DNA of 64,000 nt from Bacillus sp. V5-8f. GTDB lineage: Bacteria > Bacillota > Bacilli > Bacillales > DSM-1321. This document shows, piece after piece, positions 24,033-44,998 of the stretch. The position numbers and the translations under genes were made by a program. Within the stretch, counting starts at the first letter, position 1. Each line of letters opens with the position of its first letter. The DNA lies in NCBI RefSeq assembly GCF_002863565.1, contig NZ_PGUW01000019.1, positions 1 to 64,000 of the forward strand, read 5' to 3'. The notes beneath the pieces were generated by a model. It did not search any database. It saw only the letters and a program-made list of their open reading frames with translations, and was not told where the DNA came from.

Positions 24033-24965
24033 CTAGCCTGCTGTTAATGTATAATTAATTGTGCCATCAGGACTAATATCAATTAATGCCCCTCTTAACA
24101 TACCTTGATCATAGTCGGTACCAGCATTTATACAAACCGTTTTCCCTATGTGGGTTACACCTCGGCTTTCGTGAACATGACCGTGCAAGGCAAGCAACGG
24201 CTGATAATTTTCAATGGCTTCTCTAACTGCCTTGCTTCCAGCTGGTCCGGTCGCAAGGGAATCACCATCTAGCACCGGTTTTAAATCTGAATCATATAAA
24301 GTTCCTTGATCTAAATCTGTATCATAAGGAGGGATATGGATATTAAATACACATTTATTCATATTCTTTACTTGTGAAGCTAATCTGTTAACCTTTTCAG
24401 CTAAGTCTTCTTCGTTGAACTCACGCGGGTAGTTGAAAACACTGGATTTCCCGCCGCCAACTGAAAGGATTTCAAAGCCACCTATTTCGATTATTCTTCC
24501 ATCCCCATTTTGTACATGCGTGCCTGAGCTGAGGATATCATCCAGGTAAAAATCATCTACACTTCCGGGAATCATAATACAAGGAACATTGATCCTGGCA
24601 AATCTGTCATCAGCCAGTTTAATCCATTCTTTAAGGACATCCATCTGCTTTTCCTTTATAATATACTCTGCATCACTTTCATTTAACTTATTTAACTTTT
24701 CTTCAGAGATAACTAAAGGATAAAAACCGGCATCACGCAAATTTCTTTCCAAGTCTGGCAGTTCACTGGCTTTTTTAACTCTGACTTTTGACCCATAATA
24801 TTTACAAGTATATATTCCGCCCTTTTCAACAATGGGAACTACCATCTTGCCTGTAAAATCACCACCATAAATCATTAATTCCGCACCATAAAATCCGGCA
24901 GCATTCGTAAACTTTCGAAATGCTGTTTCTCCACCATGCAGGTCCCCAGCATAGAATAGTTTCAA
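24033..24965 (-). CDS. Calcineurin-like metallophosphoesterase
   Basis: A 310-residue metallophosphoesterase. Metal motifs in order: GDLHGGE (residues 8-14), YGGDFTGK (about 33-40), PGSVDDFY in place of the usual GNHD, HIPPYDTDLD, and HGHVHESRG near 260. The GSVDD variant marks a less common subgroup, which acts on unknown phosphate esters. No signal peptide. It is the last gene of the minus-strand microcompartment locus, 46 bases after the APC permease, so co-transcription is likely. Since the locus encodes a small-molecule kinase, a phosphatase that removes stalled phospho-intermediates would make sense, but that is inference. Confidence 0.82.
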   Translation of the reverse strand: MKLFYAGDLHGGETAFRKFTNAAGFYGAELMIYGGDFTGKMVVPIVEKGGIYTCKYYGSKVRVKKASELPDLERNLRDAGFYPLVISEEKLNKLNESDAEYIIKEKQMDVLKEWIKLADDRFARINVPCIMIPGSVDDFYLDDILSSGTHVQNGDGRIIEIGGFEILSVGGGKSSVFNYPREFNEEDLAEKVNRLASQVKNMNKCVFNIHIPPYDTDLDQGTLYDSDLKPVLDGDSLATGPAGSKAVREAIENYQPLLALHGHVHESRGVTHIGKTVCINAGTDYDQGMLRGALIDISPDGTINYTLTAG

Positions 24966-25010
24966 AACTCCCCACCCCTATCACTTTTATCTTATCCCTA
25001 CCCCATAGGA

Positions 25011-26612
25011 TCAGTCTGACGGAATCTCTTGGAACTGAATATCAATATCAATCCCTTTTTTAGCATATGAACGTTTCATGACGAAATAAATGAAGATTGG
25101 TATAAACATTAAGAGGAGAGATACGACAATCATAGTAAAAGGTAAATCTCCTCTAAAAAATGGAATTAAAAGGTAGTAACAGATGGAAACGCTGATGGCA
25201 GTCGTTAACCAGCCTAAGATAGTGATTAAATGTATTCCGAAGATTTTCGTTTTAACAACAGGCGGTGAAGAGTTATACAAGATTTTTTTTCTAGACGTAA
25301 ATACAATCCCAGCTATACCTAAGAAAATCCAGGCTAAGAACCAAGTAAAAATAGTATAGGCAATATTAGCTGTCCAGGAAGGGACGAAAATATCCAGCAT
25401 TAAAAAAATCCATGCTCCTACAATTACTGTTCTCAATGCATAAGTAGGTGAATTTGTCTTTGGATTCAGCTCCATAAATTTTTTCGGGATTAACCTGTCA
25501 AACGACCATGCCACAAAGTTGCGTGAGGGTCCAAATCCCAGACCAGCAGCTGAGCCAAATGTTGCAATGGCAAAGCTAATCGCTATCAAAAAGATAAACA
25601 GAGGACTCTTTGTCATAATCCCAATCATGATCGTAATGAAAGGATCATAGCCTTTAAACGGATAAGCTTCATGGCCGGCATTATAAAGATAATATAGGCT
25701 GTTTGACCAAATACCTCCAAAATTCACGTAGCTCATTCCATAGAAAATCGCCCAAATTACCATTAAAATGGCTAAAGAACCAAACAATGCGAGTAATTGG
25801 GATTTTTGCACGTTACGTACTTCCCCGGCTAAATTAGCTCCAAAGGTTGAACCAAGAGTATTCAGAATAATATAAGTAGAACCAGCCATAAAGGTAGCTC
25901 CAAATAGAAACTCAGTTGTGTAGCCATCCTGCTTTGCAATCTTGATAACATCGCCATAGTTTAAACCAGTCAGCTGAGTAAAATTAGCAGCAAAAGTACC
26001 TTGCCCTGTTATTAAGTTGGCGATGACAAATACAACCGCCCCAACAAGGGTTGCGCCCAAAGTAATATACGCCAGGCGAACCATCCACTTCGTTCCTTTT
26101 TGGTAGATAAAATAGATAAATAATAATAAGGCTGTACCAATTATGGCATGCATGTAATTTCTGTTAAAAAATTCTGCTAAGCTTAACCATGTCGCGTTAT
26201 TTCCATAAACCAATGACATAGAATAAAAAAATTGGACAATGGACCACTTAATAATCCAATTTAATAGAATTCCTGTCCACGAGAGTGAGGTGAACGTAAT
26301 CATAAAACTAGCCATGAGACCCAGTGAAGGGTGTAAAATCCGACTAATGTAAATGTACTCCCCGCCCGATCTAGGCATGGATACTGAAAAAAGCCAGTAT
26401 AAACCTGCGATAATGAACATTTGTGAAACAGCCAAAATCGCCCAAACCATATGTGCTCCCGGATATAGGAATGGAGCCCACATAATGTATACAAGTGCAA
26501 ACATAAGACCAGGATTGGCGGCCGAATAAATCATTGTATCAATCGGACTAATTTGACGGGCAATTCCTCCAGTGGATTTCTGCTCGAACAATGCAAGACC
26601 GGTTTTTGACAT
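25011..26612 (-). CDS. APC-family amino acid/amine permease
   Basis: A 533-residue membrane protein with about 12 to 14 hydrophobic segments and APC-superfamily character: SMPRSGGEYIYISRILHP after helix 2 and GSTFGANLAGEVRNVQKSQL near the middle (residues about 255-275). It is the second permease of the locus and is not closely similar to the Eat-type carrier at 41416-42765. Adjacent to the APH-type kinase gene, it plausibly imports the amino alcohol (or amino acid) that the kinase phosphorylates. Ribosome binding site AAGGGTGAGG before the ATG. Substrate not determinable from sequence. Confidence 0.85.
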   Translation of the reverse strand: MSKTGLALFEQKSTGGIARQISPIDTMIYSAANPGLMFALVYIMWAPFLYPGAHMVWAILAVSQMFIIAGLYWLFSVSMPRSGGEYIYISRILHPSLGLMASFMITFTSLSWTGILLNWIIKWSIVQFFYSMSLVYGNNATWLSLAEFFNRNYMHAIIGTALLLFIYFIYQKGTKWMVRLAYITLGATLVGAVVFVIANLITGQGTFAANFTQLTGLNYGDVIKIAKQDGYTTEFLFGATFMAGSTYIILNTLGSTFGANLAGEVRNVQKSQLLALFGSLAILMVIWAIFYGMSYVNFGGIWSNSLYYLYNAGHEAYPFKGYDPFITIMIGIMTKSPLFIFLIAISFAIATFGSAAGLGFGPSRNFVAWSFDRLIPKKFMELNPKTNSPTYALRTVIVGAWIFLMLDIFVPSWTANIAYTIFTWFLAWIFLGIAGIVFTSRKKILYNSSPPVVKTKIFGIHLITILGWLTTAISVSICYYLLIPFFRGDLPFTMIVVSLLLMFIPIFIYFVMKRSYAKKGIDIDIQFQEIPSD

Positions 26613-26857
26613 TTCCTCACCCTTCTTTCAAAAGATCATTTTTTAGTGCCAACCATACCTGTGTGAGAATTTTTTCACCTTATACACTGGTGTTTTATAA
26701 AATTTTCCTTAGCATTAAAGGTAAAAGATTGATTTGGTCTAAAAAGTTTCGCTTGCGGCTTGCAGAGTCTTGGATTATCTATCCTTCCTGAGGTATTTAC
26801 TGGTTACAGCGTCTCAGTCTATCTACCTGAATTAAATGTAAGGGCTTTCATTCAAAT

Positions 26858-27865
26858 CTATTTTTTCAAATAATTCATAGCCAGGACGTCAGTTTCCACG
26901 GTGAAGCCACTTCCTAACTCTCGAGTAGTTTCGTTATCACGGCTTCCAATCCAGGCAATTAACTGCAATCTCCGCATCATAATAAAAGTAGGAATTTCTT
27001 GTTCTTCCTCCCTGGATAGAGAACGGACTTTACGATACCCTTTTAACCATGAAGAGATTAAGTCAGGTACATACGGTTTATGTTCAATAAAACTTAAGGA
27101 CGTGGCAAAGTCATATAGAAACCAGCCAAAGCCGCAATCATCGAAGTCAATGACCTTGATTTGATCCCGGTCCACAAGTAAATTGGCCAGCCGCATATCG
27201 GAATGGATTAACCCATATCGATTATGATTTTTTCCAAACTGCTTCAGCCTTTTTTTAATCTTATTTGATACTTTTTCATAAAGCTGTAGTCTCTCAGGCG
27301 TAATTGCCAAGCCATCCTGCCATCTTCCCCATTTGGGGTCCGATCCTAAAATCGTGTCGTAATCCCATGTTAAACGTGTTATGTTTTGAAGGCTATCTTG
27401 ATATCTGACACTGTGCTCATGCAACTGTGCGGTAATGGTACCAAGCCTTTCAAATTGTTGAATTAAAGTGCTTTCATTATCTTCCTCCGGGGCATTGCCT
27501 TCCAGAAACGTAAAAAGGGTACAATAGAATTCTTCATGATCATGTTCAACAACCTGAACATATTCACCGTTATCCCCGAAAATTGGAAGCGACACTTTCA
27601 GTTCAGAATGCTGATCAATCGATTGCAGCCATTGCAGTTCACTTTCCACTTCAGTTTTCGTATGATATCCAGGACGCCCTACCCGTAATATATATTTTTC
27701 ACTAGTATCTTTTGGATTCTTTATAATATAGGTCGCATTCTCGGAATAATTCAAAAGATCAATATGATACGGTATTAAAAAGCTGAAATGATTTACTGCC
27801 TTTTTTGCAATGGAATTAAATTTGTCTAAAGATTCTTTTAAAGAATCTACGGAAGGATCGCTCAT
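26858..27865 (-). CDS. APH-family small-molecule kinase (candidate amino-alcohol kinase)
   Basis: A 335-residue kinase with the aminoglycoside-phosphotransferase/choline-kinase fold. The catalytic HSDMRLAN (Brenner motif, H221 to N228; D223 catalytic) and the metal-binding IDFDD (D240, D242) are intact; the N-lobe has SENATYIIKN and YILRVGRPGYHTK with a candidate ATP-binding lysine. Similar to homoserine, hydroxylysine and aminopropanol kinases. Cytosolic, no targeting helix obvious. It is in a microcompartment locus that also encodes a class III PLP enzyme and an SDR, the trio found in the RMM compartment for 1-amino-2-propanol. I infer it phosphorylates an amino alcohol such as aminopropanol or ethanolamine; an antibiotic resistance role is unlikely here. 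Confidence 0.82.
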   Translation of the reverse strand: MSDPSVDSLKESLDKFNSIAKKAVNHFSFLIPYHIDLLNYSENATYIIKNPKDTSEKYILRVGRPGYHTKTEVESELQWLQSIDQHSELKVSLPIFGDNGEYVQVVEHDHEEFYCTLFTFLEGNAPEEDNESTLIQQFERLGTITAQLHEHSVRYQDSLQNITRLTWDYDTILGSDPKWGRWQDGLAITPERLQLYEKVSNKIKKRLKQFGKNHNRYGLIHSDMRLANLLVDRDQIKVIDFDDCGFGWFLYDFATSLSFIEHKPYVPDLISSWLKGYRKVRSLSREEEQEIPTFIMMRRLQLIAWIGSRDNETTRELGSGFTVETDVLAMNYLKK

Positions 27866-27925: not shown

Positions 27926-28702
27926 TTATAAAGGATCTGCAATTAAAAGCTCTATTTCCATTTTAGCAAGGATGTGTTTCCACTCATTTGGACAATTCTT
28001 ATCTGTGATAATCATGGATACCTCCGTTAAAGAACACATATGTGCGAAAGTCGTTTGACCGAATTTGGAGTGATCACCCAAAATAATAACCTGATCCGCA
28101 CGTTCAATTATTTTACGCGATACACTTGAACCGCTTAGATCATAATCAGTAATACCGTTTATCGTAGATATCCCTCCGGCAGAAATAAACGCTTTATCTG
28201 CCTTCATCATCTCAAGCATTCTTTCTGTTAAGGGACCACTCGTATATTTTTGATTTTTTTCGAATTCCCCGCCTATAAAAATGATACGTCCTTTAAAGAA
28301 CTCCATTGCAAGGAGCATCACAGGCATTGAATGAGTAATCAGGGTGATATCTGTTTTGTGCGCCAAATAGCGAACGATTTCTAAAGGAGTGGTTCCATTC
28401 CCGATCATTATAATATCGCCATCTTCAACTAAATTGGCAGCGGCTTTACAAATGGCCTGTTTTTCCTGGTTATGAATAGTGGTTTTTTCATCAAAGGGTA
28501 GTTCCCAATTTTGGATCTTCATTTTGACAGCTCCACCATATACTTTCTTAAGGAATCCTTCCTTTTCTAAACGGTCTAAATCACGGCGGATTGTTTCATC
28601 CGATACCCTAAACTGATTGGCCAGCTGTCTAACGTACACCTTTTCTTCTTTATCTAATGCAGCTAATATTGTAAGTTTTCTTTCTTCAAATGAGATTGAC
28701 AT
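27926..28702 (-). CDS. DeoR-family regulator (copy 1)
   Basis: A 258-residue DeoR regulator. Start at MSISFEERK with AGGTGG seven bases upstream. N-terminal HTH (residues about 5-58: VSDETIRRDLDRLEKEGFLKK, written here in part, then VYGGAV) and a C-terminal sugar-phosphate-isomerase-like effector domain (about 75-235) with MIGNGTTPLEIVRYL, SAGGISTINGITDYDL and DHSKFGQTTFAH. DeoR proteins respond to a phosphorylated small molecule, which fits a locus with a kinase. Copy 2 at 44231-44998 is clearly related (shared GGISxxNGxTDYDLxGxSxSRK). It lies between the SDR and kinase genes, minus strand. Confidence 0.9.
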   Translation of the reverse strand: MSISFEERKLTILAALDKEEKVYVRQLANQFRVSDETIRRDLDRLEKEGFLKKVYGGAVKMKIQNWELPFDEKTTIHNQEKQAICKAAANLVEDGDIIMIGNGTTPLEIVRYLAHKTDITLITHSMPVMLLAMEFFKGRIIFIGGEFEKNQKYTSGPLTERMLEMMKADKAFISAGGISTINGITDYDLSGSSVSRKIIERADQVIILGDHSKFGQTTFAHMCSLTEVSMIITDKNCPNEWKHILAKMEIELLIADPL

Positions 28703-28741
28703 ATCTGGGACCACCTACTATGAATTGAGATAAGCAGTAAA

Positions 28742-29500
28742 TTAGTTTTCTGGTAAGATTTGTCCACCATCAACAATAATCGTTTGACCGGTTATAAATC
28801 CCGCTTCCTTTGTAGCCAAAAAAAGTGCCGCATATCCAATATCTTCTACAGTGCCTAGCTTATTCATTGGAATAGATGCGGCCATCTCTTGTAAATAATC
28901 ATCACCCAAGCCTTCTAAGCCTTCAGTTAAAATGTTACCCGGCAATACTGCATTTACAGTAATGTTTTTACCAGCCAATTCCAAAGCAGCAGTTCTCATG
29001 AAACCTAATTGTGCCGCCTTGCTTGCCGCATAGTGGGACCATCCTGGATAACCTGTGACAGGTCCGGTTATCGACGAAGTAATGACGATTCGGCCATATT
29101 CTGCTTGTTTTAAGTAGGGAATACAGGCCTGTACTGCATGAAAAGTCCCCTTTGCATTTGTATTCATGACTAGATCCCAATCTTCATTCGTCATAACTTC
29201 AAGATTTGCCGAAGGGAATATTCCAGCATTTGCACATAATACATCCACACTTCCAAACCTCTCAAAAACCTCTTTCGCTACACCCGCCATGGATTCACGA
29301 TCAGTAACATCACCGCAAATCGCATAAACATTTCCATTATCTCCGCCTAATTCACCAACACAAGCCTCAGCCATATCCAGATTACGAGCTACAATTACAA
29401 CACTTGCCCCCTGATCAGCAAACGTTTTTGCAATTCCCTTTCCAATTCCTTTACTGCCGCCAGTAACGATGACCGTTTTTCCTTTAACTGATTGATACAC
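28742..29500 (-). CDS. Short-chain dehydrogenase (FabG-like; candidate aminopropanol dehydrogenase)
   Basis: A 252-residue SDR. Cofactor motif TGGSKGIGKG (about residues 13-22), NAG (CANAGIF, about 90), catalytic Ser in SSITGPVTGYPG and the YAASK motif (about 160), and C-terminal TGQTIIVDGGQILPEN. GTG start at codon MYQSV with AAGGAG eight bases upstream. The SSITGP-TGYPGWSHY segment and short ending are, as I recall, close to the SDR of the RMM microcompartment, an (S)-1-amino-2-propanol dehydrogenase, but this could not be checked. It may oxidise an amino alcohol or reduce an aldehyde to recycle NADH. Located in the accessory part of the BMC locus. Confidence 0.85.
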   Translation of the reverse strand: MYQSVKGKTVIVTGGSKGIGKGIAKTFADQGASVVIVARNLDMAEACVGELGGDNGNVYAICGDVTDRESMAGVAKEVFERFGSVDVLCANAGIFPSANLEVMTNEDWDLVMNTNAKGTFHAVQACIPYLKQAEYGRIVITSSITGPVTGYPGWSHYAASKAAQLGFMRTAALELAGKNITVNAVLPGNILTEGLEGLGDDYLQEMAASIPMNKLGTVEDIGYAALFLATKEAGFITGQTIIVDGGQILPEN

Positions 29501-29509
29501 AAACAACAC

Positions 29510-29962: not shown

Positions 29963-30925
29963 CTAGGAACCGGTCCCCTCGTCCCAAGAAAGGATTTGCA
30001 CCATCTTCTTCACATCGTTGGCAGAAATATCAAGCTGTGCCATTTCTGCATGCGTGAGAGGGAGTTCTATGATACTTTCAATCCCGCTGCCCCCAAGTAC
30101 GGTTGGCACCCCAAGAAATAAATCATTGTAGCCATATTCACCTTCCAAATAGGCAATGACAGGCAGGACTCGTTTCTTATCTTTGATAATAGCCTCCACC
30201 ATTTCAATAAGGGAAGCAGCAGGAGCATAGTAGGCACTTCCGTTTCCAAGAAGCTCTACAATTTCTCCTCCACCGGTTCTTGTTCTTTTAATGATGGCTT
30301 CAATTTGTTCTCTGGACATGAGTTGTTCCAGAGGAATACCGCTCACATTGGAATAGCGGATGAGCGGTACCATGCTGTCACCGTGCCCGCCAAGAACAAA
30401 CCCTGTAACATCTTCCACAGAAATATTCAGTGCCTCTGCAACAAAAGTTTTAAAACGAGCTGTATCAAGCACGCCTGATTGACCGATTACACGATTTTTA
30501 GGGAAACCCGTTGTTTTAAAACATGTATAAGTCATTACATCGACCGGATTACTCAATACAAGTATATAACTGTCTGGTGCGTATTCTTTTATCTTCTTGG
30601 AAACCTGGACCATAATTTCTTTATTTTTCAGGACGAGGTCCTCACGGCTCATCCCGGGCTTTCTGGCAATGCCTGCAGTAATAATGACCATGTCTGCATT
30701 CTGGATATGGGCGTAATCAGATGTTCCTTTAATCGAAACATTAAATTTTTCCATAGGCCCTGCTTCCAGCATATCCAGCGCTTTTCCCTTTGACGGTTTT
30801 TCCATTTCCGGTATATCAACCAGTATGATATCCCCCAACTCTTTTTGGGCCAGCATTAGAGCAGAGGTCGCTCCAGTATGACCAGCTCCGATCACGGCCA
30901 ATTTTCTTCTTTGAAACGTCTTCAT
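29963..30925 (-). CDS. mdh: Malate dehydrogenase (accessory copy)
   Basis: A 320-residue LDH-like malate dehydrogenase, highly similar to B. subtilis Mdh by eye. NAD-binding [10 protein letters not shown], the specificity loop [10 protein letters not shown] with the malate-selecting Arg, NPVDVMTY, and the catalytic HGD in [12 protein letters not shown] are all intact. ATG start MKTFQRRK chosen, with AGGTGA six bases upstream (an earlier ATG overlaps that site). A short tail SWDEGTGS follows the usual end. It interconverts malate and oxaloacetate with NAD. Its usual place is next to citZ-icd; here it sits between a BMC shell gene and an SDR. I infer it may balance NADH made by the aldehyde dehydrogenase. 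Confidence 0.92.
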
Positions 30926-31064
30926 CGCCATTCACCTCTATCCGTATAACCTGGAATTGAAAGTTCACCTGCTCCGGAACTTCATTTTTTACTTACCGCA
31001 CGCCCGCGTTCAATCTCTTGTTTACATTTTCTTTTATTTAGTAGGGTCCGTTCTTTACTGGTTC

Positions 31065-31334
31065 CTATTTTAAAATAAGTTCTTTGGTTTCCGCATCCGG
31101 ATTAGGGATAATTAAATGAGATACCACCAGTCCAAACCGGTTTGCCGCCTCTGTTCCCGCTTCTACAGCCGCCTTTACAGCACTTATATCGCCTTCTGCA
31201 ACAATAGTCACTAATGCTGCATCAACCTTTTCTTGCCGCACAAGCGTTACATCGGCTGCCTTCACCATGGCATCTGCCGCTTCGATGGAGGCTATTAGTC
31301 CCCTGGTTTCAATCATGCCAAGCGCTTTACTCAC
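31065..31334 (-). CDS. BMC-H microcompartment shell protein (copy A)
   Basis: An 89-residue single-BMC-domain protein forming hexagonal shell tiles: SKALGMIETRGLIASIEAAD, then AEGDISAVKAAVEAGTEAAN and a tail VVSHLIIPNPDAETKELI. Typical PduA/EutM length. The pore loop is degenerate relative to the 40705-40995 copy (KVDAALVTIVAEGD instead of GGG-type). GTG start with GGGTGGTG upstream. It is the last shell gene on the minus strand of the operon, downstream of the aldehyde dehydrogenase, and may tune shell permeability for a particular metabolite. Confidence 0.94.
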   Translation of the reverse strand: MSKALGMIETRGLIASIEAADAMVKAADVTLVRQEKVDAALVTIVAEGDISAVKAAVEAGTEAANRFGLVVSHLIIPNPDAETKELILK

Positions 31335-33032: not shown

Positions 33033-33686
33033 TTACATATGCTTTGGTTTCAGGGCAACCTGTTTTACTGCTTCCCGAAAAGCATTCGCTGCAGCCTCAC
33101 ATGCAGATTGAGACCCGGTCAAGAGCCCGCCGCCAAAGTTGGTTTCAGAAGGTGGTTTAAATAGGGACTTCAATTCTACTTCCGCTTCTTTTAAGGCTGC
33201 ATCAATCCCGAACATCGCTTCAAGCGGGGGTGCAATTAGATAGGCGATCGCTTCCCCCTCTTTAATGCCAGCCTCTTTTGACAGCAGCTTGCCTGTACGG
33301 GGAACCACATGAGCAAAAAAAGCATGGGAGGGGTCTTCATTAAGTGCTTCAAAATATGCATGTCCGTTCACTGTTTCGATAACTGCATCCATCCCGCTTT
33401 TTACTTCTTCATTATTGGAACCAGATAAAATTCCAATAAATTCTCCGGACAATGGTCCTGACGCATGCCCTGAACCTGCATAAAAGGAATGTTTATAAAC
33501 CGCTTCGACATCGGCTTGTTTGGTTGCTTCATCCAACGCCACCATCCCAACGTCATCAATGGTGACGGTAAATATTCCTATACTGTGGTGCCCGGAAGGC
33601 AATTCAAACTCCTTGATCATGTCAGGATGAACATTGGAAATGATTCGAACCGCTAAAATTCGCGCGTAAACTGGCTTGAGCTTCAT
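33033..33686 (-). CDS. eutL: EutL, trimeric (tandem BMC) shell protein
   Basis: A 217-residue tandem-BMC shell protein, close to E. coli EutL (219). Start at MKLKPVYARILAVRII (the family N-terminus) with AAAGGAGAG upstream. Family-typical segments: HSIGIFTVTIDDVGMVALDE, FYAGSGHASGPLSGEFIG and, at the end, ETNFGGGLLTGSQSACEAA. EutL forms trimers with a gated central pore thought to pass larger substrates and cofactors. It starts 14 bases after eutC, so is translated in line with it. Minus strand, between eutC and the aldehyde dehydrogenase. Confidence 0.95.
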   Translation of the reverse strand: MKLKPVYARILAVRIISNVHPDMIKEFELPSGHHSIGIFTVTIDDVGMVALDEATKQADVEAVYKHSFYAGSGHASGPLSGEFIGILSGSNNEEVKSGMDAVIETVNGHAYFEALNEDPSHAFFAHVVPRTGKLLSKEAGIKEGEAIAYLIAPPLEAMFGIDAALKEAEVELKSLFKPPSETNFGGGLLTGSQSACEAAANAFREAVKQVALKPKHM

Positions 33687-33699
33687 GCAGGGCTCTCCT

Positions 33700-37564: not shown

Positions 37565-38062
37565 TTATTCATGAAAAATAACTGCTTCTGGCTGTGATGC
37601 TTTTGTAAAGTCCCTCATCTCCTGGATACTTGAGCATGCCACAAGCTCTCTTAATTCCTGAACTCCTATCGCTGTATAAGAGGACGTAACAACTATAGGG
37701 CCGGTTGTTATCGCCTTTTTTAAATGCCCAACTGCCCGATCAACATCCGCATTCTCATGATCACATTTGGTGACAACTCCGATAATCAACTTGTTTATGC
37801 CTGCGGCGAACCCTGGGGGAAAAATGGAAGCCTTTTTCGTAGCGTCCTGAATAAAAAGGACATGAGTGACTTCTAACATGGTTGTCATAATACTTTTGTA
37901 ATAAAAGGGATTCTCTGTGTATTCGCCTGGTGTGTCAACAATCCAGTCATAATAGATTAAGCTTTGTGTTTTTCGCGGTTTTACCTTCTTCCCTAATAAC
38001 ACTTGCCCCAGTGTTGTTTTTCCAGCTCGAATGGCTCCGATTAGCATTGCCCTGTTTTTCAT
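37565..38062 (-). CDS. eutP: EutP/PduV-family GTPase-like protein
   Basis: A 165-residue Ras-like small P-loop protein. Start at MKNRAMLIGAIRAGKTTL with GGAGTGAT upstream; an alternative ATG seven codons earlier has no ribosome binding site. Walker A is GAIRAGKT (usual EutP has GPSQCGKT); the switch/Walker B region is IVDTPGEYTENP and the base motif is VTKCDHE. EutP of Salmonella has acetate kinase activity and PduV binds the compartment shell; either role is possible here. It sits between eutS and eutA on the minus strand, the order seen in Firmicutes eut operons. Confidence 0.92.
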   Translation of the reverse strand: MKNRAMLIGAIRAGKTTLGQVLLGKKVKPRKTQSLIYYDWIVDTPGEYTENPFYYKSIMTTMLEVTHVLFIQDATKKASIFPPGFAAGINKLIIGVVTKCDHENADVDRAVGHLKKAITTGPIVVTSSYTAIGVQELRELVACSSIQEMRDFTKASQPEAVIFHE

Positions 38063-38084
38063 AGTCAGAATCACTCCAAGCATT

Positions 38085-38426
38085 TCATGATTTTGTAAGA
38101 AATGTGGGAGTATAACGTAAAGCCTGAGCCAAAAAATGATTCACTTCAGCAAGAGCCGTCTCCACCTCTGATACACTGCCAACCAAAACAAGACTTCCTG
38201 TAAACCGATCAAGAAATCCAATTTTGACTCTTGCTGCCTTTGTCGCATAATCCCCGGCTATTATCACTGTTTCACTTGGTGTAAGCGTCAGTATTCCTAA
38301 AGCTCCCGCTTCCTCCAGGCCCAGCTTGTCGTAGAGGTCTGGGTCGGGATTGGCAATCAAGTGACTAAGTGTTACTTGTTTCCCGGGCACAAACTCTTGG
38401 ATAAAACGTTTTTTTTCTTCTGTCAA
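38085..38426 (-). CDS. eutS: EutS, permuted BMC-H shell protein
   Basis: A 113-residue circularly permuted BMC shell protein (E. coli EutS 111). Segments [19 protein letters not shown] at the start and [19 protein letters not shown] in the middle are typical; the end is [19 protein letters not shown] then a short helix. EutS hexamers are bent and thought to allow edges or faces to curve. TTG start with AGGTGA six bases upstream. The gene lies 23 bases before eutP. Confidence 0.95.
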
Positions 38427-38565: not shown

Positions 38566-38838
38566 CTATTCAACGATCAATCTTTCAAGGGTTTGACCAT
38601 CAGCTGCTGAAATGACCGAATAAGCGACCAGAGCACCAGTCTGTTCTGCCGTTTGTTTACCTACTTCTATTGCTGCATACACGGCAGTTACGTCACCGGC
38701 AATATAGGTTGTTATGAGAGCCGGGTCTGTTTTATTCACCTGAAACAGCTTGACATCAGCCGTTTTTAGCATTCGGTCCGTTGCTTCAATGGCAGTCGCA
38801 ATACCTATTGTCTCAATCATTCCAACAGTTTTTCTCAT
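38566..38838 (-). CDS. BMC-H microcompartment shell protein (copy B)
   Basis: A 90-residue single BMC-domain protein: RKTVGMIETIGIATAIEATD, YIAGDVTAVYAAIEVGKQTA, LVAYSVISAADGQTLERLIV. Start at MRKTV with AAGGG nine bases upstream; an upstream ATG that overlaps the EutN stop codon is possible (three more residues). It differs from the other BMC-H copies at the pore loop (LITTYIAGDV) and tail. The gene overlaps or abuts eutN, showing translational coupling with the pentamer vertex protein. Confidence 0.92.
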   Translation of the reverse strand: MRKTVGMIETIGIATAIEATDRMLKTADVKLFQVNKTDPALITTYIAGDVTAVYAAIEVGKQTAEQTGALVAYSVISAADGQTLERLIVE

Positions 38839-38843
38839 GACAT

Positions 38844-39116
38844 TCATCCCTTCAGTTCTTTAGGGTCAACAATTCCAATAATAAGCGCATCGATAGGCAC
38901 CGACTGCTCGTTAAAGGCTGAAGCGGGCGTACCTCGTGTCACAATTACTTTATCGCCGGTTCCTGCACCAATCCGGTCCACTGCTACAAGAATGGAATCA
39001 GTGGCGCCAGCGTCCCGCTCGAAACCATCTATGTGCACCTCTAGCAATTTTAAACCTGTTAGCCCCTCCTCTTTTCTGGTGGCCCATATGCTCCCTACTA
39101 CAGTTCCAATGACCAT
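38844..39116 (-). CDS. eutN: EutN/CcmL-type pentameric vertex protein
   Basis: A 90-residue BMC-P protein that caps the vertices of the shell. MVIGTVVGSIWATRKEEGLT is the family start, and AVDRIGAGTGDKVIVTRGT is the typical OB-like beta segment; the end is IDALIIGIVDPKELKG, close to other EutN proteins. Ribosome binding site GGGAGG. Its stop codon overlaps the upstream ATG option of the next shell gene. It is the only BMC-P gene in the window, and one type is enough to close a shell. Confidence 0.95.
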   Translation of the reverse strand: MVIGTVVGSIWATRKEEGLTGLKLLEVHIDGFERDAGATDSILVAVDRIGAGTGDKVIVTRGTPASAFNEQSVPIDALIIGIVDPKELKG

Positions 39117-39367: not shown

Positions 39368-40012
39368 TTATAAAAAAGTAATCTTGATACCAAGCTCCCT
39401 AGCTTTATCCATCGCAAGCGGGGTAATAATTGTCCCTTGTTTTACCACAAGCTCTGTGCCGGTATGATTGTCTACTTTTTCTTGGGTAATGAGGGTTTTG
39501 GAAGGTTTCCTTTGAATCTGATCATGAGATGGTTTACTTTCTTTCAGCGGCTTTAGTTCTTCCAGTCGAAGAAATGTGACTCCAAAGCTTTCAATGGTAT
39601 TTTTATAGGCACGAATATGTTCTAGATAGCCTGAGTATCTGTGCTCGTTTCCGTCAGTTTGGATCAATTTTTGCAACGTTTGATCAAGTACAAAAGATAT
39701 CGGTATCTCCATAGTCATTAATTGAACAAATCGTTTATTTTCAAGAGTATCAGTAAAACCAAGCGCTGCCTTTACCAGGGTAGTTTGATCGACATTCAGA
39801 AATACAGCTTGCTGTACATCTGGTAATGAATCATTTTCTTGGATATTCCCACTTACTACATTCCAGTACGACTCTAAAATGCTGAGCTCCTTAGCGATAC
39901 TTTCACCTTGTTTAGAGATGACTAGAAGCCTTGATTTTGGAGATTCGCGGTTCGTTTCAATTTGGCCAAGGACCTCTCTAACAATACTTTCAATTAGTTT
40001 AGGATCTATCAT
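39368..40012 (-). CDS. Ethanolamine utilisation protein, TIGR02536/PduM-like
   Basis: A 214-residue protein typical of non-proteobacterial eut operons, described there as an ethanolamine utilisation protein of unknown function. N-terminal MIDPKLIESIVREVLGQI is an amphipathic helix of the targeting type (residues 1-18). A linker and a mixed alpha/beta domain follow (LVKAALGFTDTLENKRFVQL). The C-terminus TELVVKQGTIITPLAMDKAR then GIKITFL resembles the end of PduM, a compartment assembly protein. ATG overlaps the pduL stop (ATGATA), so translation is coupled. Probable role: assembly or cargo organisation. Confidence 0.75.
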   Translation of the reverse strand: MIDPKLIESIVREVLGQIETNRESPKSRLLVISKQGESIAKELSILESYWNVVSGNIQENDSLPDVQQAVFLNVDQTTLVKAALGFTDTLENKRFVQLMTMEIPISFVLDQTLQKLIQTDGNEHRYSGYLEHIRAYKNTIESFGVTFLRLEELKPLKESKPSHDQIQRKPSKTLITQEKVDNHTGTELVVKQGTIITPLAMDKARELGIKITFL

Positions 40013-40680
40013 ATTACATCACTCGTACGGATTAACTCCGCGAAATCTCCTGAAATAACATTCGCCGCATTGGCTTCGTCCGTATCGATATGCATTTCGA
40101 GAACGTAGTGGGGAGATTCCCGCACTTTCACCTTCTCGAATGAAATCGGCCTTCTTTCGTTATTTATTTTCACCCGGACAAAATCCCCGTCCTGTACACG
40201 AAATCTCGCAGCATCACTCGGAGACATATGAATGTGTGCCTGTGCAATGATAAGTCCTTCCTCTAAATAAATACTTCCTTTGGGGCCGATGATTGTAACA
40301 GGTGATGAGTTTGCAATATTCCCAGACTCCCTAATCGGCGGTTTTAGACCAAGCTTTACCGAATCGGATATGCTAACCTCAACTTGCGTGTGTTTCCTGA
40401 ATGGGCCGAGTACTCTTACCTTTTCAATGCTTCCTTTAGGACCTGCTATGGCTACTGTTTCATTTGCTGCAAACTGGTCGGGTTGCAAGAGGTCCCCTTT
40501 TTTTGTAAGGGAACCTTCTTTCCCGAAAATTTTAGCAAAATCTTCTTTCGATAAGTGGCAGTGACGCGCTGACACTCCGATTGGGATTGGGCGGCCTGCC
40601 GTCTTTTTATCGATGTTTTCCGTAACGGAAAGCTTTTTTACAATTTCATCAACTAAATGATCAAGTTCGATTCTTTCCAT
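40009..40680 (-). CDS. pduL: Phosphate propanoyl/acetyltransferase PduL type
   Basis: A 223-residue PduL-family phosphotransacylase, which converts acyl-CoA to acyl-phosphate and recycles CoA inside the compartment. The dinuclear zinc set is seen as SARHCHLS (H40, H42), AQAHIHMSP (H149, H151) and LEMHIDTDEAN (H197). N-terminal MERIELDHLVDEIVKKL is an amphipathic targeting-type helix before the linker. No Pta-type EutD is present in the window, so PduL covers this step. It starts 24 bases after the EutM-type shell gene stop. Confidence 0.95.
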   Translation of the reverse strand: MERIELDHLVDEIVKKLSVTENIDKKTAGRPIPIGVSARHCHLSKEDFAKIFGKEGSLTKKGDLLQPDQFAANETVAIAGPKGSIEKVRVLGPFRKHTQVEVSISDSVKLGLKPPIRESGNIANSSPVTIIGPKGSIYLEEGLIIAQAHIHMSPSDAARFRVQDGDFVRVKINNERRPISFEKVKVRESPHYVLEMHIDTDEANAANVISGDFAELIRTSDVI

Positions 40681-40704: not shown

Positions 40705-40995
40705 TTAGTTCTCCCCGACCTTTGGCAAAATCCCGATCAATTCATTATGAGGACGAGGGATCACATGAACAGATAGAAGCTCGCCGACTCGTTGTGCGGC
40801 TGCACTGCCCGCCTCCGTTGCGGCCTTTACGGCGCCTACATCACCTGTCACCAGAACAGTTACGATTCCGCCTCCAACATGAACCTTCCCTACGATATTG
40901 ACATTTGCAGCCTTCACCATGGCATCAGCTGCCTCAATGGAACCTACAAGCCCTTTCGTTTCAATCATTCCAAGTGCACCATTAAAAGATGACAT
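40705..40995 (-). CDS. eutM: EutM/PduA-type BMC-H major shell protein
   Basis: A 96-residue BMC-H protein, the most canonical copy in the window: [20 protein letters not shown], then [20 protein letters not shown] with the GGG pore motif, and [20 protein letters not shown]. Probably the main facet protein, with the KAAN and pore loop typical of EutM. AGGAGG ribosome binding site and ATG. It is the first shell gene of the operon, downstream of the small targeting-helix protein at 41051-41332. Confidence 0.95.
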
Positions 40996-41050: not shown

Positions 41051-41332
41051 CTAAGAGTATTTTATAAATCTAGCTTTATTGCCGTTTTCCTTGTACTTTG
41101 AGTGGACGCTATAGGAATATGAGTGGGTACATCGGGCCCAATCTTCAACCTCGGCATCTGAAAGCGGCTTTAGATATCCGTTATGGGACTTGGCCTCTGA
41201 AGGATTGCCCAGATGCAAAGAATTCCAGTCCTCCAATTCGTTGTCATCTAGTGACACAGTATATTGGTCTTCGGTGTTCACCAAACGCTCAAGTACTAGC
41301 CTAGTGATTCTTTCAACTAACTCCTTATCCAA
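41051..41332 (-). CDS. Orphan small protein with targeting-type N-terminal helix
   Basis: A 93-residue protein without recognised family. TTG start at MDKELVERITRLVLERL (GGGGG eight bases upstream). Residues 1-17 form an amphipathic helix that resembles those of EutC, PduL and the TIGR02536-like protein of this locus. The rest is polar, with two similar motifs (DDNELEDWNSLH, residues 29-40, and SDAEVEDWARCTH, about 57-70) and a basic tail YKENGNKARFIKYS. No catalytic motif is seen. It could be a truncated cargo protein whose catalytic domain was lost, or an adaptor joining cargo to the shell. It sits between the permease and eutM genes, minus strand. Confidence 0.65.
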   Translation of the reverse strand: MDKELVERITRLVLERLVNTEDQYTVSLDDNELEDWNSLHLGNPSEAKSHNGYLKPLSDAEVEDWARCTHSYSYSVHSKYKENGNKARFIKYS

Positions 41333-41415
41333 TGTCGGAGCCCCCTTTCAAATGTCAGAGCTGGAAAGGCAAGCCTGTTCGCGGCTTACCTTATTTGCCA
41401 TTTCTGTTTTATAAC

Positions 41416-42765
41416 TTATACAGCGTCGTCAACCTGCTCTTCAGGCGCATCCTTATTGATGTGATGCTGGGCCCAGACATAGTAATAGATGATCGCTACA
41501 ACAAAGACTCCAATGCTGATCATGAAGAAGGTAATGTTTGCAAACACACTCGCAAAGATAGAAATGACCGCCAGCACTAATGAAACGATTGGTGTAAAGG
41601 GATATAGCGGTGTTTTGTATGAACGTAGAAGATTTGGATCTTTTTTTCTAAGGATTAAGACAGAGAGGTTCATAGAAATATAAGAAACAAGAGCTCCGAA
41701 GGTTGAAATCAAAATTAAATCATTGGGATCGAATAACACGACTAGAACCAACCCAATGATACCAGGCAAAATGATCGCTAAATATGGCGTTCTCCTGGTC
41801 TTGTGCAATGAAGCCAGCTTGGCAGGCAAATATCCTGCACGTGATAGCGCAAAGATTTGGCGCGAGTAGGCCAGAATAACACCCGAGAAGCTGGCGATTA
41901 ATCCCACAAGACCAATTGAAGCCAAAATTTGCGCTAACCAGTAGGTTTTGCCGAATGCTGCTGCAATCGCCGACGGAAGCGGGTCACTGGCCGTACTCAT
42001 GACTTCAATGCCGCCAAGCCCGATGGCAACTGTCGTAGTCAAGACGGAAAGGATCATTAATGTAACAATTCCGGAGATAATCCCTTTCGGCATATCTTTT
42101 TTGGGATTACGGGTTTCTTCAGATAGCATCGGGAGCATCTCAATGGCTAAAAATAGCCACATCGCATACGGCAGCGCAGCCCATACACCTTTCAGCCCGT
42201 TCGGAATCAGAGGATCATTCCCGGAGCCGAAAAGCTTCTCAAACCGAATTTCAGGTAATCCTACAAAGTACATAAGGACAAGCAGAGCTAACGCAATAAA
42301 GACTAAAACTGCCTCTATTGTTGCATACTCCTTGATCCCGATAATGTGGATCACCATAAAAAACACATACATGATCGCCGCTGCCAAGATGGTACTAACA
42401 ACCGGAAACAAGAAATTAATGTAGGCGCCAATTCCAATGGCAATCGTCGGAGCTGCGATCACATATTCAAGAATGACACCTATGCCAGTTAAGTAACCCG
42501 CGAGCGGACCCATTGCCCGTCTAGCAAAAGAATAGGGGCCGCCTGCATGAGGCAAAGCAGTAGACAGTTCCGAGATTCCTAAGCACATAAACCAATACAT
42601 GATTCCCATAATTGAAGTGGCTATTAACATGCCAACATAACCTGATTCTGCCAACCCATAGTTCCAGCCAAAGAAATTCCCTGAGATTACGATACCTACA
42701 CCAATTACCCACAGGTGAAAAGGTGTCAATGTCTTTTTAAGTTCTAAATTGTTTGAACCTCCCAT
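41416..42765 (-). CDS. eat: Eat-type ethanolamine permease (APC family)
   Basis: A 449-residue membrane protein with about 12 hydrophobic segments, matching the ethanolamine permease subfamily: LKKTLTPFHLWVIGVGIVIS, GNFFGWNYGLAESG and STALPHAGGPYSFARRAMGP. AAAAGGAGGAAAGG before ATG. It would import ethanolamine (or a close amino alcohol) across the cytoplasmic membrane, replacing the EutH carrier of proteobacteria, which is absent from the window. It lies after the class III PLP enzyme gene and before the shell genes. Confidence 0.9.
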   Translation of the reverse strand: MGGSNNLELKKTLTPFHLWVIGVGIVISGNFFGWNYGLAESGYVGMLIATSIMGIMYWFMCLGISELSTALPHAGGPYSFARRAMGPLAGYLTGIGVILEYVIAAPTIAIGIGAYINFLFPVVSTILAAAIMYVFFMVIHIIGIKEYATIEAVLVFIALALLVLMYFVGLPEIRFEKLFGSGNDPLIPNGLKGVWAALPYAMWLFLAIEMLPMLSEETRNPKKDMPKGIISGIVTLMILSVLTTTVAIGLGGIEVMSTASDPLPSAIAAAFGKTYWLAQILASIGLVGLIASFSGVILAYSRQIFALSRAGYLPAKLASLHKTRRTPYLAIILPGIIGLVLVVLFDPNDLILISTFGALVSYISMNLSVLILRKKDPNLLRSYKTPLYPFTPIVSLVLAVISIFASVFANITFFMISIGVFVVAIIYYYVWAQHHINKDAPEEQVDDAV

Positions 42766-42924
42766 TTCCTTTCCTCCTTTTGAATCTTACTCGATACAAC
42801 GCCCTGGAGTACTTACCATGGTATGACTGGTTATTCTGTACAGGTTTTTAACCGGAAAGGTCAACTGTTATGTCTGACATCAGGTTCAATGGATTTCTGG
42901 CTTCCCCCCTTTCAATACGTCTGT

Positions 42925-44184
42925 TTAATAACTAAATGCAGGCTTCCTGGATGCTTCCTTAATGCTTTTTTCACAGCGCTCTAGCAATTCATCACAATAG
43001 GGCTTATCCAACAATAAACCAGGCTTAAATTGCAGCACCTTCGTGTCCAGCATGGAATAAATCGCCCATACACCATTATTGTAAAGAGCACGCATAACAT
43101 CCTTGGCCGCATCTTGTTCCCTGAACTCTAGTCCCATAATGACACCGAGCTGGCGGATTCCAACAAAATAATCTGGATACCTTTGCTTAATTTGCTCTAA
43201 GCCTGATCGCAAATAACGAGAAACATAGTTTACATTTTTGACAACGTCTGGGCGCTGGGAAATCTCCAACACTTTGTCTGCGACCACGCAGCCAAGCTCT
43301 GCTCCGCCGAATGTCGAGATATGTGCGAGGCCATCTTCATTCATCCATCCGCCCGCACGTTCGCTCACAACAGTTGCAGCGATTGGATAGATGCCTCCAC
43401 TAAGCCCTTTTGCAGTAACAAGAATATCAGCCTCTACTCCATAATGCTCAATTCCCCAGAGCTTTCCGCTTCTCATGAGTCCTGTTTGAACCTCATCTGC
43501 TATGTAAAGAGAACCGTATTTTTCACAAAGCTTTTTCACCGTGTTTAAGTAGTCTTGCGCCGGCATCGGAAATCCATAGGTAGCTGGAACCGTTTCAAGT
43601 ACGACGCAAGCAACATCTTCCTGATTGAGTGCTTTTTCCATGGCATCGGGATCGTTAAATGGCACTTGGATAAATAAGCCCGGCTCACCTTGGCTTAGAA
43701 ACGGCCCGGAGTATCTAACATGCCCCAGGGAAACCGCTAATCCGCTATGGCCATGGTACCCATTTTGAATGGAAACCACCTTTTTACGCTTTGTGGCATA
43801 GCGTGCACATTTTATGGCTGCATCAATAGCTTCACTGCCTCCGCTTGCGAAGATGGAATACTTGACACTATTTGGAGTGGAGCGAGCAAGAGAATCAGCC
43901 AGCTTCGCACGCCCGATTGCTGGAAAATGATGATTCCCGATATCGAATTCATCCATTGCTTCTTTTAGCGTTTGGATAATTTCCGGATTTCGGTGTCCCA
44001 GATTGAACGTTCCTCCATTTAAATGGAGATTCATGAGCTCTTTCCCCTGCATATCGTATACATAATAGCCTTCGCGTTTTCCCATCACAAAATCAATGCC
44101 ATCCTCTTGCCATTGACGCGTTTTACCTGGATTCCACGAATCGATCGATTTTTTGAGAACTTCCCCTTTGTTTAAATTAAGCAT
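42925..44184 (-). CDS. Class III PLP aminotransferase/phospholyase
   Basis: A 419-residue class III (omega-aminotransferase-like) PLP enzyme. SGGSEA (residues 114-119, phosphate cup), IADEVQTGL (228-236, with the PLP-pyridine Asp230) and the Schiff-base Lys259 in TAKGLSGG are intact. The start is typical of ethanolamine-phosphate / aminopropanol-phosphate phospholyases rather than GABA or ornithine transaminases by context: the locus also has a kinase and no obvious amino-acid pathway. I infer it eliminates phosphate and ammonia from a phosphorylated amino alcohol to give an aldehyde, but a transaminase activity (for example with beta-alanine or alanine) is possible. AAGGAG before ATG. First structural gene after the DeoR regulator. 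Confidence 0.85.
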   Translation of the reverse strand: MLNLNKGEVLKKSIDSWNPGKTRQWQEDGIDFVMGKREGYYVYDMQGKELMNLHLNGGTFNLGHRNPEIIQTLKEAMDEFDIGNHHFPAIGRAKLADSLARSTPNSVKYSIFASGGSEAIDAAIKCARYATKRKKVVSIQNGYHGHSGLAVSLGHVRYSGPFLSQGEPGLFIQVPFNDPDAMEKALNQEDVACVVLETVPATYGFPMPAQDYLNTVKKLCEKYGSLYIADEVQTGLMRSGKLWGIEHYGVEADILVTAKGLSGGIYPIAATVVSERAGGWMNEDGLAHISTFGGAELGCVVADKVLEISQRPDVVKNVNYVSRYLRSGLEQIKQRYPDYFVGIRQLGVIMGLEFREQDAAKDVMRALYNNGVWAIYSMLDTKVLQFKPGLLLDKPYCDELLERCEKSIKEASRKPAFSY

Positions 44185-44230
44185 GTCCTTAACTCCTTTA
44201 AAACGTGATTGGATTTTTTGATTGCGTCAC

Positions 44231-44998
44231 TTAACCTATCACAATGTTCATATCAAGCAAGTCGATTATTGTACGCCATTCACTAGACAGGATGGTGTCA
44301 GTCACTAGCGTCGTTGATTCCAAGAGTGGTGATATATGGGCAAATGTCGTTTTACCAAACTTCGAATGGTCAGCAAGTATGATCACTTCGTCCGCCCGTT
44401 CCATCATTTTTCGTGACAGACTCGCCCCATAAAGGTCATAATCCGTTAATCCATTATTTTTAGATATGCCCCCTGGGGCTATAAAAGCTTTGTTTGCTTT
44501 AATGTGCATCATTACCTTTTCGGCAATAGGCCCAGCTGTAAGCTTCTGGTCTCTGCCCATCTCTCCACCACTAAAAATTACTTTTCCTTCAAAGCCTTCA
44601 AGGCACATTATTAGAATATGAATCGATGATGTTACAACTGTAATATGTTTCTTTTGAGCCAAGTACGGAACCATATATGAAGTTGTTGTTCCATGACTAA
44701 TCATAATAATGTCCCCATCCTCAACCATCCCGGCTGCTGCTTTACAGATGCGACGTTTCCCATCCGCATTCACCATCAGTTTTTTCTCAAATGGAGGCTC
44801 AAGGTAACGCTCCCTTTGTTTAACAGCTCCTCCATGAACCTTTTTGAGTAAATGCTCTTTATCCATTCTGTTAAGATCGCGACGGATTGTTTCGCCTGAT
44901 ACACCAAGCAAATTGGTTAACTCTGTAATTCTAACCCGTTCATCCCGGTCCAAAATATCAACAATAACCCTTTTCCTTTCCTCATATGGAATTGACAT
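44231..44998 (-). CDS. DeoR-family regulator (copy 2)
   Basis: A 255-residue DeoR regulator, paralogue of the one at 27926-28702. Start at MSIPYEERKR with AGGTGA five bases upstream; a TTG start five codons earlier is possible. HTH region LLGVSGETIRRDLNRMDKE (about 22-40) then VHGGAVKQRE; effector domain with GTTTSYMVPYLAQKK, GGISKNNGLTDYDLYGASLS and DHSKFGKTTFAHIS. It is the first gene of the minus-strand BMC locus, 46 bases before the class III PLP enzyme gene. No EutV/EutW or EutR is found, so the two DeoR proteins are the only local regulators. Confidence 0.92.
   Translation of the reverse strand: MSIPYEERKRVIVDILDRDERVRITELTNLLGVSGETIRRDLNRMDKEHLLKKVHGGAVKQRERYLEPPFEKKLMVNADGKRRICKAAAGMVEDGDIIMISHGTTTSYMVPYLAQKKHITVVTSSIHILIMCLEGFEGKVIFSGGEMGRDQKLTAGPIAEKVMMHIKANKAFIAPGGISKNNGLTDYDLYGASLSRKMMERADEVIILADHSKFGKTTFAHISPLLESTTLVTDTILSSEWRTIIDLLDMNIVIG

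Follow-up and report, generated by a model that had tools for sequence, protein, structure and literature searches.

On the minus strand of a 64,000-nucleotide stretch of the Bacillus sp. V5-8f genome (contig NZ_PGUW01000019.1, positions 1 to 64,000; the window in what follows), a run of 23 genes spanning about 21 kb (24033-45013) joins the B12-dependent ethanolamine ammonia-lyase of ethanolamine utilization (EUT) bacterial microcompartments (BMCs) to the kinase and pyridoxal phosphate (PLP) enzyme of aminoacetone utilization (AUT, or RMM1) microcompartments. It appears fairly probable that a single microcompartment serves two amino-alcohol routes here, and that the locus was born of the fusion of an EUT with an AUT locus. 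Along the first route, ethanolamine would be imported by an Eat-type permease and converted by EutBC to acetaldehyde. Along the second, an APH-family kinase would phosphorylate another amino alcohol, most likely 1-amino-2-propanol, which a short-chain dehydrogenase/reductase (SDR) would also form from aminoacetone, and the PLP enzyme would split the phosphate ester to give an aldehyde (propionaldehyde). Both aldehydes would then be oxidized by one acylating aldehyde dehydrogenase (AldDH) and handed on to PduL within a single shell, and a malate dehydrogenase (MDH) may recycle NADH with oxaloacetate.

All frames of the run are open and of full length, which rules out a decayed locus. Six shell genes encode three BMC-H proteins, EutS, EutL and EutN, and the enzymes are EutABC, EutP, PduL, a EutE-type AldDH, the kinase, a class III PLP enzyme, the SDR and the MDH. 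The remaining genes code for the Eat-type permease, a second APC permease, a metallophosphoesterase (MPE), two DeoR regulators and two small BMC-associated proteins. The original prediction, made from the window alone, had described a same-strand run of about 21 kb with a shell set, EutABC, PduL, AldDH, kinase, class III PLP enzyme, SDR, second permease and metallophosphoesterase. The minus-strand frames, with library matches or (for EutA and EutB) comparison with relatives, confirmed this description, and the MDH, the two DeoR regulators, EutP, a TIGR02536-like protein and a 93-residue protein (EPorf) have to be added to its list; the fusion origin, the missing EutV, the exchanged kinase and EPorf, all described below, formed no part of it.

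Gene calls were measured against the curated cut-offs of NCBIfam and those of Pfam. EutL (327.8 bits; cut-off 300), EutC (279; 230), EutS (131.7; 123), the PduL-type transacylase (254; 209), the ethanolamine permease (TIGR00908, 465; 382) and MDH (469; 352) exceeded the former, and the kinase (PF01636), the PLP enzyme (PF00202), the SDR, both permeases and the EutM-like BMC-H protein the latter, which MPE barely passed (22.9 vs 21.5 bits). Below the NCBIfam cut-offs fell AldDH as EutE (598 vs 620), EutP and EutN. EutB was called from tblastn matches to annotated EutB and EutA from its position and relatives, neither through family libraries. Six BMC-domain matches were found in the 4.43-Mb genome, all inside the window, one of them (the second half of EutL) below the cut-off.

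Both lyase subunits and the reactivating factor thus stand beside shell genes as in EUT loci (EutA by position and relatives), together with the PduL-type transacylase and EutE-type AldDH of the EUT2 core, the latter slightly below its equivalog cut-off. With the EUT2-type compartment of Firmicutes, as described in PMC4207490 and PMC8217296, the locus shares EutABC, EutL, EutS, EutM, EutN, EutP, PduL and the EutE-type AldDH. It differs in its additional kinase, PLP enzyme, SDR, DeoR regulators, Eat permease and EPorf, in the absence of EutV from the genome, and in the absence of EutW, EutH, EutG, EutT and EutQ from among its genes; the two-component regulator, present in 87% of EUT2 loci according to PMC4207490, is accordingly missing from the locus, as is EutH. 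With the RMM1/AUT compartments of Mycobacterium and Rhodococcus (PMC4207490 and PMC6620236) it has in common the PLP enzyme, APH kinase and SDR beside shell genes, an acylating AldDH, an amine permease, BMC-H and BMC-P. In contrast to them, it carries DeoR rather than GntR regulators and no RMM-type AldDH, and it possesses PduL, MDH, EutS, EutL and EutABC.

To place the kinase, PLP enzyme and SDR, an RMM-like locus was taken as reference from a PLP search, as the best 120 of 7286 protein matches to the kinase were all close kin. Among 396 genomes of the phylum of G807 (genomes are numbered here with G and loci with L), 24 had a PLP match at E < 1e-80; wider stretches were read for 10 of these 24, in several of which the open reading frame (ORF) finder did not recover the PLP frame, and shell genes were found in one, L098 of G807. 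This locus contains a permease, PLP enzyme, AldDH, BMC-domain protein, BMC-P, BMC-H, kinase, SDR and GntR regulator, the content given for RMM1 in PMC4207490. The window proteins are 55% (PLP), 56% (SDR) and 41% (kinase) identical to those of L098; its BMC-H is 66% identical to the window EutM and its AldDH only 36% identical to that of the window. The kinase carries, by eye, the motifs HSDxRLAN and DFDD and has no other match in the genome. Its best Protein Data Bank (PDB) match is 6ef6 (239.9 bits; runner-up 71.6), which we take to be the (S)-1-amino-2-propanol kinase of Mycobacterium smegmatis (Mallette and Kimber). The best matches of the SDR are 6ci8 and 6ci9 (320.2 bits, others reaching 299), presumably the aminopropanol dehydrogenase of the same species and authors. 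These comparisons support a kinase/PLP/SDR set of RMM type, as originally predicted. A chance neighborhood of an antibiotic kinase and a transaminase was ruled out, as kinase and PLP enzyme occur together in 24 of 24 loci and amicoumacin kinases score 72 bits against 240 for 6ef6. Spread on known plasmids was also rejected, all plasmid matches of the two proteins being below 60% identity.

In relatives, the surroundings of PLP and EutB genes were read over as much as 20 kb and compared with the window genes. The PLP scan gave 28 loci, namely 20 from Bacillales (72-88% identity), one from Chloroflexota (47%) and seven at 25-32%; of 397 genomes drawn from the order, eight had a PLP match at E < 1e-110 (that of G179 only 41% identical) and 53 had EutB. 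Orthologs of at least 65% identity were present in 24 genomes, including G043, G098, G322 and that of the window, and the kinase stood beside PLP in all 24 loci read, with the SDR in 20 (missing from L042, L069, L026 and L045). Shell genes accompanied 16 of the 17 AUT loci read and, within the stretch, 17 of the 20 EUT-only loci. The fuller EUT-only loci contain a two-component pair, EutH, EutS, EutP, EutABC, EutL, AldDH, EutM, PduL, a TIGR02536-like protein, EutN, BMC-H and MDH; the fuller AUT loci contain SDR, DeoR2, PLP, kinase, in some cases the Eat permease and a HAD-family hydrolase, EPorf, AldDH, EutM, PduL, a TIGR02536-like protein, EutN, BMC-H, MDH and sometimes APC2 and MPE. Relatives of MDH occur in 10 of the 17 AUT and 9 of the 20 EUT-only loci, those of APC2 (82-91%) in 8 of the 17 AUT loci, and MPE (73-79%) follows APC2 in 7 of these 17. 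The HAD-family hydrolase, checked with Pfam on L069 only, is found in some AUT and fused loci (L069 7613-8368, L015 13751-14497, L031 13780-14523, L042 3155-3895) and is not present in the window locus. In Bacillales EUT loci, two EutB copies about 8 kb apart were seen in L047, L050, L054, L076 and several further genomes, the second being about 55-58% identical to that of the window; the second copies tested, four in number, group in a clade apart.

Fused loci with shell genes were five in number: that of the window and those of the metagenome-assembled genome (MAG) RH52 (L041), Calidifontibacillus erzurumensis (L042), G098 (L069) and Alkalihalobacterium elongatum (L028 and L046), so that a fusion unique to the window strain is ruled out. 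At two further loci, L045 (PLP-kinase-EutABC-permease) and L072, no shell gene lay within the 20 kb read. In the 16 other genomes with both genes PLP and EutB were unfused, on different contigs or far apart, the nearest pair being 37 kb from each other (G043). No EutB match was found in G071 at E 0.001, or in G322 at a stricter threshold.

The window genome contains one BMC-type acylating AldDH, the next best match reaching 42.5 bits; should both arms operate in a shell, they have to use it in common. The original proposal that both aldehydes go to the same AldDH is sustained to this extent, the sharing holding only under that proviso. The other fused genomes (G061, G062, G098 and G076) also have one AldDH each at 64-83% identity to that of the window; further matches in G061 and G076 are at 35-47%, with one apiece in a frame of 886-898 residues as in AdhE. 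Among the 16 unfused genomes, a clear separate AldDH per locus was observed in seven (G043, G064, G068, G072, G073, G074 and G077). The AUT loci of G063 and G066 lack an AldDH, the sole one found in each genome sitting in the EUT locus, which is AldDH sharing in trans, and in others, e.g. G069, G070 and G075, AldDH is in the AUT locus and none is in the EUT stretch read. The use of one AldDH by both arms may therefore extend beyond the fused loci.

A marker of the kinase/PLP loci is EPorf, which has no Pfam or NCBIfam match. It consists of a helix like an encapsulation peptide (EP), two repeats of the type L-x-x-x-E-L-x-x-W (three in some members) and a basic and aromatic C-terminus, in which a V-K/R-F motif resembles, by eye, motifs in the EutC linkers of EUT loci. 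M1, I9, T10, V13, L28, W36, L57, E61 and W65 are invariant among 12 aligned members. A profile built from 10 members, all of them also counted among the loci, detected EPorf at E <= 1e-15 in 22 of 22 kinase/PLP loci apart from the two shell-less ones; it found none in L045 and L072, in the RMM-like L098, or in the 20 EUT-only loci, where the best value (4.8e-7) was due to a similar helix of EutC. Co-conservation with BMC genes, whose lack would have counted against the original prediction by its own terms, was found: shell genes lie within the stretch read in 21 of the 22 EPorf-bearing kinase/PLP loci, L019 being the exception with no shell gene seen within 10 kb. Among 5.8 billion proteins searched there were 22 matches, including that of the window, the others being unnamed or hypothetical except for one labelled as a kinase. 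EPorf might act as an adaptor. A more elaborate possibility, which we advance tentatively, is a metabolosome with two signature enzymes, in which one shell and aldehyde core would be fed by the B12 radical lyase (ethanolamine) and by the kinase/PLP phospholyase (aminopropanol), with the EPorf helix entering the core and its Trp motifs recruiting kinase, PLP enzyme or SDR, so that a second pathway could be plugged into an existing organelle.

Regulation has changed in the fused loci. EutV and EutW were named by position, as the response regulator and histidine kinase near EutH (itself above its NCBIfam cut-off) in the EUT-only locus L050, and the EutV query was taken from G077, which doubled as control. 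No EutV ortholog was found in the window genome (G000; best 63 bits, receiver domains), nor in four others (G062, G098, G076 and G065; receiver-domain matches of at most 69 bits), i.e. in five of the six genomes with EutB beside PLP. EutH and EutW are not among the 23 locus genes, no genome-wide search having been made for these two. Of the 17 AUT loci read, 15 had relatives of the DeoR regulators; the 20 EUT-only ones had none. DeoR1 orthologs (62-66%) head L013, L042 and L069. After the fusion, EutV and EutH would have been lost and DeoR-type regulators would have taken over; in the window locus the DeoR regulators and the Eat permease occupy the places of the missing EutV and EutH. Phosphorylated metabolites are common ligands of DeoR effector domains, which makes an amino-alcohol phosphate a plausible candidate for the inducer.

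Gene trees bear on the origin of the locus, which we infer to be a Bacillales EUT locus fused with an AUT (RMM-like) one. Their input was the near-full-length copies from these loci (28 rows for AldDH, 30 for EutB, 24 for the kinase), shorter or more distant matches and the duplicate AldDH of L046 being left out. Window, L041, L042 and L069 form one clade with AldDH (support 100/100) and EutB (100/99), and A. elongatum falls outside it in both trees, its AldDH being placed with those of AUT loci at modest support (80/89). On well-supported branches, the fused label has to change twice in the EutB tree and in the kinase tree but only once in the AldDH tree; on these branches and the different gene order, two fusions seem likelier than one fusion with later replacement. 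In the kinase tree, the window pairs with L041 (99/97) inside a group (96/90) that comprises AUT kinases of Neobacillus type alongside others, and the kinase of L069 groups with L031 and L045 (100/99). Among the sequences compared, DeoR2, APC2 and MPE of the window are nearest to those of Bacillus sp. V3-13 (77, 91 and 79%), and its SDR to that of L041 (84%), then to the V3-13 AUT type (83%). From the kinase tree, these nearest kin and a lower G+C content, the SDR-DeoR2-kinase-APC2-MPE end, of a type found in Neobacillus AUT loci, looks exchanged; the kinase was exchanged between fused loci, so its step has been retained.

Several observations weigh against one shell serving two routes. The nearest solved relatives of the PLP enzyme by sequence are transaminases, e.g. 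putrescine aminotransferase, so that of the original expectation that neither protein would cluster with transaminases or antibiotic kinases only the half concerning the kinase was upheld. At residue 385 (window numbering), 21 aligned class III enzymes have Gln in 13 rows (eight of AUT/RMM type and five homologs of 39-57% identity), Arg in four transaminase-type rows, Lys in three and Val in one; the Arg corresponds to what we take to be the keto-acid (2-oxoglutarate) carboxylate site of ornithine aminotransferase. Gln at this site and the constant pairing with the kinase favor phosphate elimination over transamination, short of proof, and as Arg is also absent from rows without a kinase link (Lys in L109, Val in L114, Gln in L078), Gln385 is suggestive only; the protein is thus a predicted phospholyase. 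That it is instead an ordinary transaminase of the free amine or of aminoacetone, with the kinase acting on a later product, we consider highly improbable. The best PDB matches by sequence would fit such an enzyme, and AutA and AutD are assigned in this way in PMC6620236, but Gln replaces Arg in all eight AUT/RMM-type rows and five homologs (Lys or Val in four others), and the kinase accompanies PLP in every one of the 24 loci and also adjoins a 50% homolog on a Pseudomonas plasmid (L079). On a Phyllobacterium plasmid (L078, 8971-10260), a 57% PLP homolog lies beside an alkaline-phosphatase-family gene, DUF1045 and PhnF, which suggests a relative handling phosphonates or phosphate esters.

Among the same adverse observations, no EP-like ends were detected on PLP enzyme, kinase or SDR (best 3.4 bits) with an EP profile of low sensitivity, which gave the window PduL only 2.3 and the AldDH C-terminus 5.2 bits; these three enzymes may hence be cytosolic. 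MDH and SDR are separated by 453 bp, and G+C drops from 0.41-0.45 to 0.38-0.40 in the SDR-DeoR2-kinase-APC2-MPE end, which may therefore be a separately controlled unit. An operator common to the intergenic stretches was sought and none was found, a promoter and terminator scan of the run gave no more matches than shuffled sequence, and the Rfam scan returned just a T-box and a cspA element, both far outside the locus; the 23 genes may not form one transcript. These features, together with the kinase/PLP loci for which the 20 kb read showed no shell gene (L045, L072), would agree with two neighboring systems, one a shell that serves only EutBC and the other a cytosolic kinase/PLP/SDR set under its own DeoR, sharing perhaps the AldDH, even if the test for EP-like ends is a weak one. 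Such a separation is nevertheless unlikely, because the PLP gene is found at the opposite end, where it precedes the genes for the Eat permease, EPorf and the shell, and because shell genes go with EPorf in all but one of the kinase/PLP loci that carry it and EPorf was not found in the two shell-less ones.

The SDR is absent from two fused loci, L042 and L069, which have kinase and PLP without it. This absence, the pairing of PLP and kinase with EutABC and a permease in the shell-less L045, and the presence of the TIGR00908-type permease in 6 of the 17 AUT but none of the 20 EUT-only loci would be accommodated by a kinase/PLP arm serving as a B12-independent by-pass for ethanolamine, i.e. one substrate and two signature enzymes, used according to cobalamin supply. 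We regard this by-pass as quite unlikely, since the SDR, kin of aminopropanol dehydrogenase, is present in 20 of the 24 kinase/PLP loci, G071 has PLP and kinase without an EutB match, and 16 of the 24 genomes have a separate EutB, redundant for one substrate except for B12 supply. Three further points count against the two-route fusion in other respects: separate AldDHs are clear in just 7 of the 16 unfused genomes, which makes a shared AldDH less special to the fused loci; the EUT-only locus L060 has a free-standing ORF of 73 residues with an EP-like helix and a weak match to the EPorf profile (E 5e-4); and G061 (the RH52 MAG) has EutV on another contig, 96% identical to that of Neobacillus Q6967, reflecting either a second EUT locus or bin contamination.

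Table 1. Genes of the fused locus in the window, in order of position, with EPorf orthologs of other loci.
Gene and product	Position	Strand	Basis
MPE, calcineurin-like metallophosphoesterase, last gene of the run	24033..24965	-	PF00149 22.9 bits (cut-off 21.5)
APC2, amino-acid/amine permease, also in AUT loci	25011..26612	-	PF13520
APHkin, predicted amino-alcohol kinase (AutD-like)	26858..27865	-	PF01636 92.1 bits; best PDB match 6ef6
DeoR2, DeoR/GlpR-family regulator of AUT loci	27926..28714	-	NCBIfam, below equivalog cut-offs
SDR, aminopropanol dehydrogenase/aminoacetone reductase-like	28742..29509	-	best PDB match 6ci9/6ci8, 320.2 bits
MDH, malate dehydrogenase, possible NADH recycler	29963..30931	-	TIGR01763 469 bits
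BMC-H shell protein a	31065..31334	-	PF00936 93.8 bits
AldDH, CoA-acylating aldehyde dehydrogenase, EutE type	31429..32952	-	TIGR02518 598 bits, slightly below cut-off
EutL, BMC-T shell protein	33033..33719	-	TIGR04502 327.8 bits
EutC, ethanolamine ammonia-lyase small subunit, N-terminal EP-like helix	33700..34692	-	PRK05465 279 bits; EP profile 24.8 bits
EutB, ethanolamine ammonia-lyase large subunit	34661..36028	-	tblastn to annotated EutB, 59-62%; orthologs in relatives
EutA, reactivating factor	36059..37498	-	position; orthologs (37-74%) adjoining EutB in relatives
EutP/PduV-family protein	37565..38083	-	TIGR02528 115 bits, below cut-off 138
EutS shell protein	38085..38426	-	PRK15468 131.7 bits
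BMC-H shell protein b	38566..38847	-	PF00936 73.9 bits
EutN/CcmL pentamer (BMC-P)	38844..39116	-	CcmL 55.4, EutN 41 bits, both below cut-offs
TIGR02536-like protein, N-terminal EP-like helix	39368..40012	-	29 bits (cut-off 152.6); EP profile 14.4 bits
PduL-type phosphotransacylase	40009..40680	-	PRK15070 254 bits
EutM-like BMC-H shell protein	40705..40995	-	PF00936 95.8 bits
EPorf, 93-residue protein without known family; EP-like helix, Trp repeats	41051..41332	-	own profile and distribution
EatPerm, ethanolamine-permease family transporter	41416..42765	-	TIGR00908 465 bits
PLP, class III PLP enzyme, predicted amino-alcohol-phosphate phospholyase (AutA)	42925..44184	-	PF00202 254 bits; Gln385
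DeoR1, DeoR-family regulator heading the window-type fused locus	44231..45013	-	NCBIfam, below cut-offs
EPorf orthologs	L041 16788-17069; L042 14911-15207; L069 8361-8645; L027 12320-12718; others		

The genes of the locus and those of relatives are summarized in Table 1. MDH has Arg at the position which, judged by eye, we take to be its substrate-specificity site. Adjoining the locus, window positions 45612-52882 contain a McrBC-like restriction pair (DUF2357/PDDEXK_7 and MrcB_N/AAA) and a GmrSD-domain protein. The nearest named relatives of the McrB-like protein, at 63-64% identity, are from Peribacillus, too distant to fix the genus. At 9289-18775, a cupin, an M20 peptidase, a cytosine/purine-type permease and a PucR regulator probably form a purine or allantoin catabolism cluster.

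AUT genes of Firmicutes have been reported before: PMC6620236 describes them in Brevibacillus agri and Lysinibacillus fusiformis, as transfers from Actinobacteria, and the window locus shares AutA, AutB and AutD with that cluster. In the Lysinibacillus and Brevibacillus loci compared here, PLP is 73-75% identical to that of the window, and EutB is on another contig or far off. Merging of BMC loci also has precedents, in the PDU/EUT fusions described in PMC4207490, which defines RMM1/2, and in the EutABC satellites that merge into other BMCs (SPU6/EUT3) in PMC8217296, where EutABC appears as a movable module; the fusion partner there is different, of diol dehydratase or sugar-phosphate type. 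The two halves of Listeria PDU/EUT are said to be independently regulated. No report of an EUT-AUT fusion was found in a search that left supplementary locus tables unread, so an EUT2 subtype name may already exist. The original statement that no BMC type with both chemistries was known holds for the fusion within that search, and needs amending in that the chemistries are known and AUT genes of Bacillales are on record in PMC6620236. What is new is the fused locus with a single AldDH, together with its probable origin in repeated events, the altered regulation and EPorf as a marker.

At stake is whether a single metabolosome can accommodate two signature chemistries that are unrelated to each other; in Salmonella regulation prevents the mixing of Pdu and Eut parts, according to PMC8217296. 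The Bacillales offer a graded series, from separate loci with separate AldDHs through AUT loci without one to fused loci of two designs, in which mixing, the sharing of shells and the take-over of regulation can be put to a direct test. If EPorf is an adaptor, it would offer a compact means of bringing foreign enzymes into shells. With most relatives keeping the two clusters apart, the EUT-AUT fusion represents a natural experiment on the mixing of contents in bacterial organelles.

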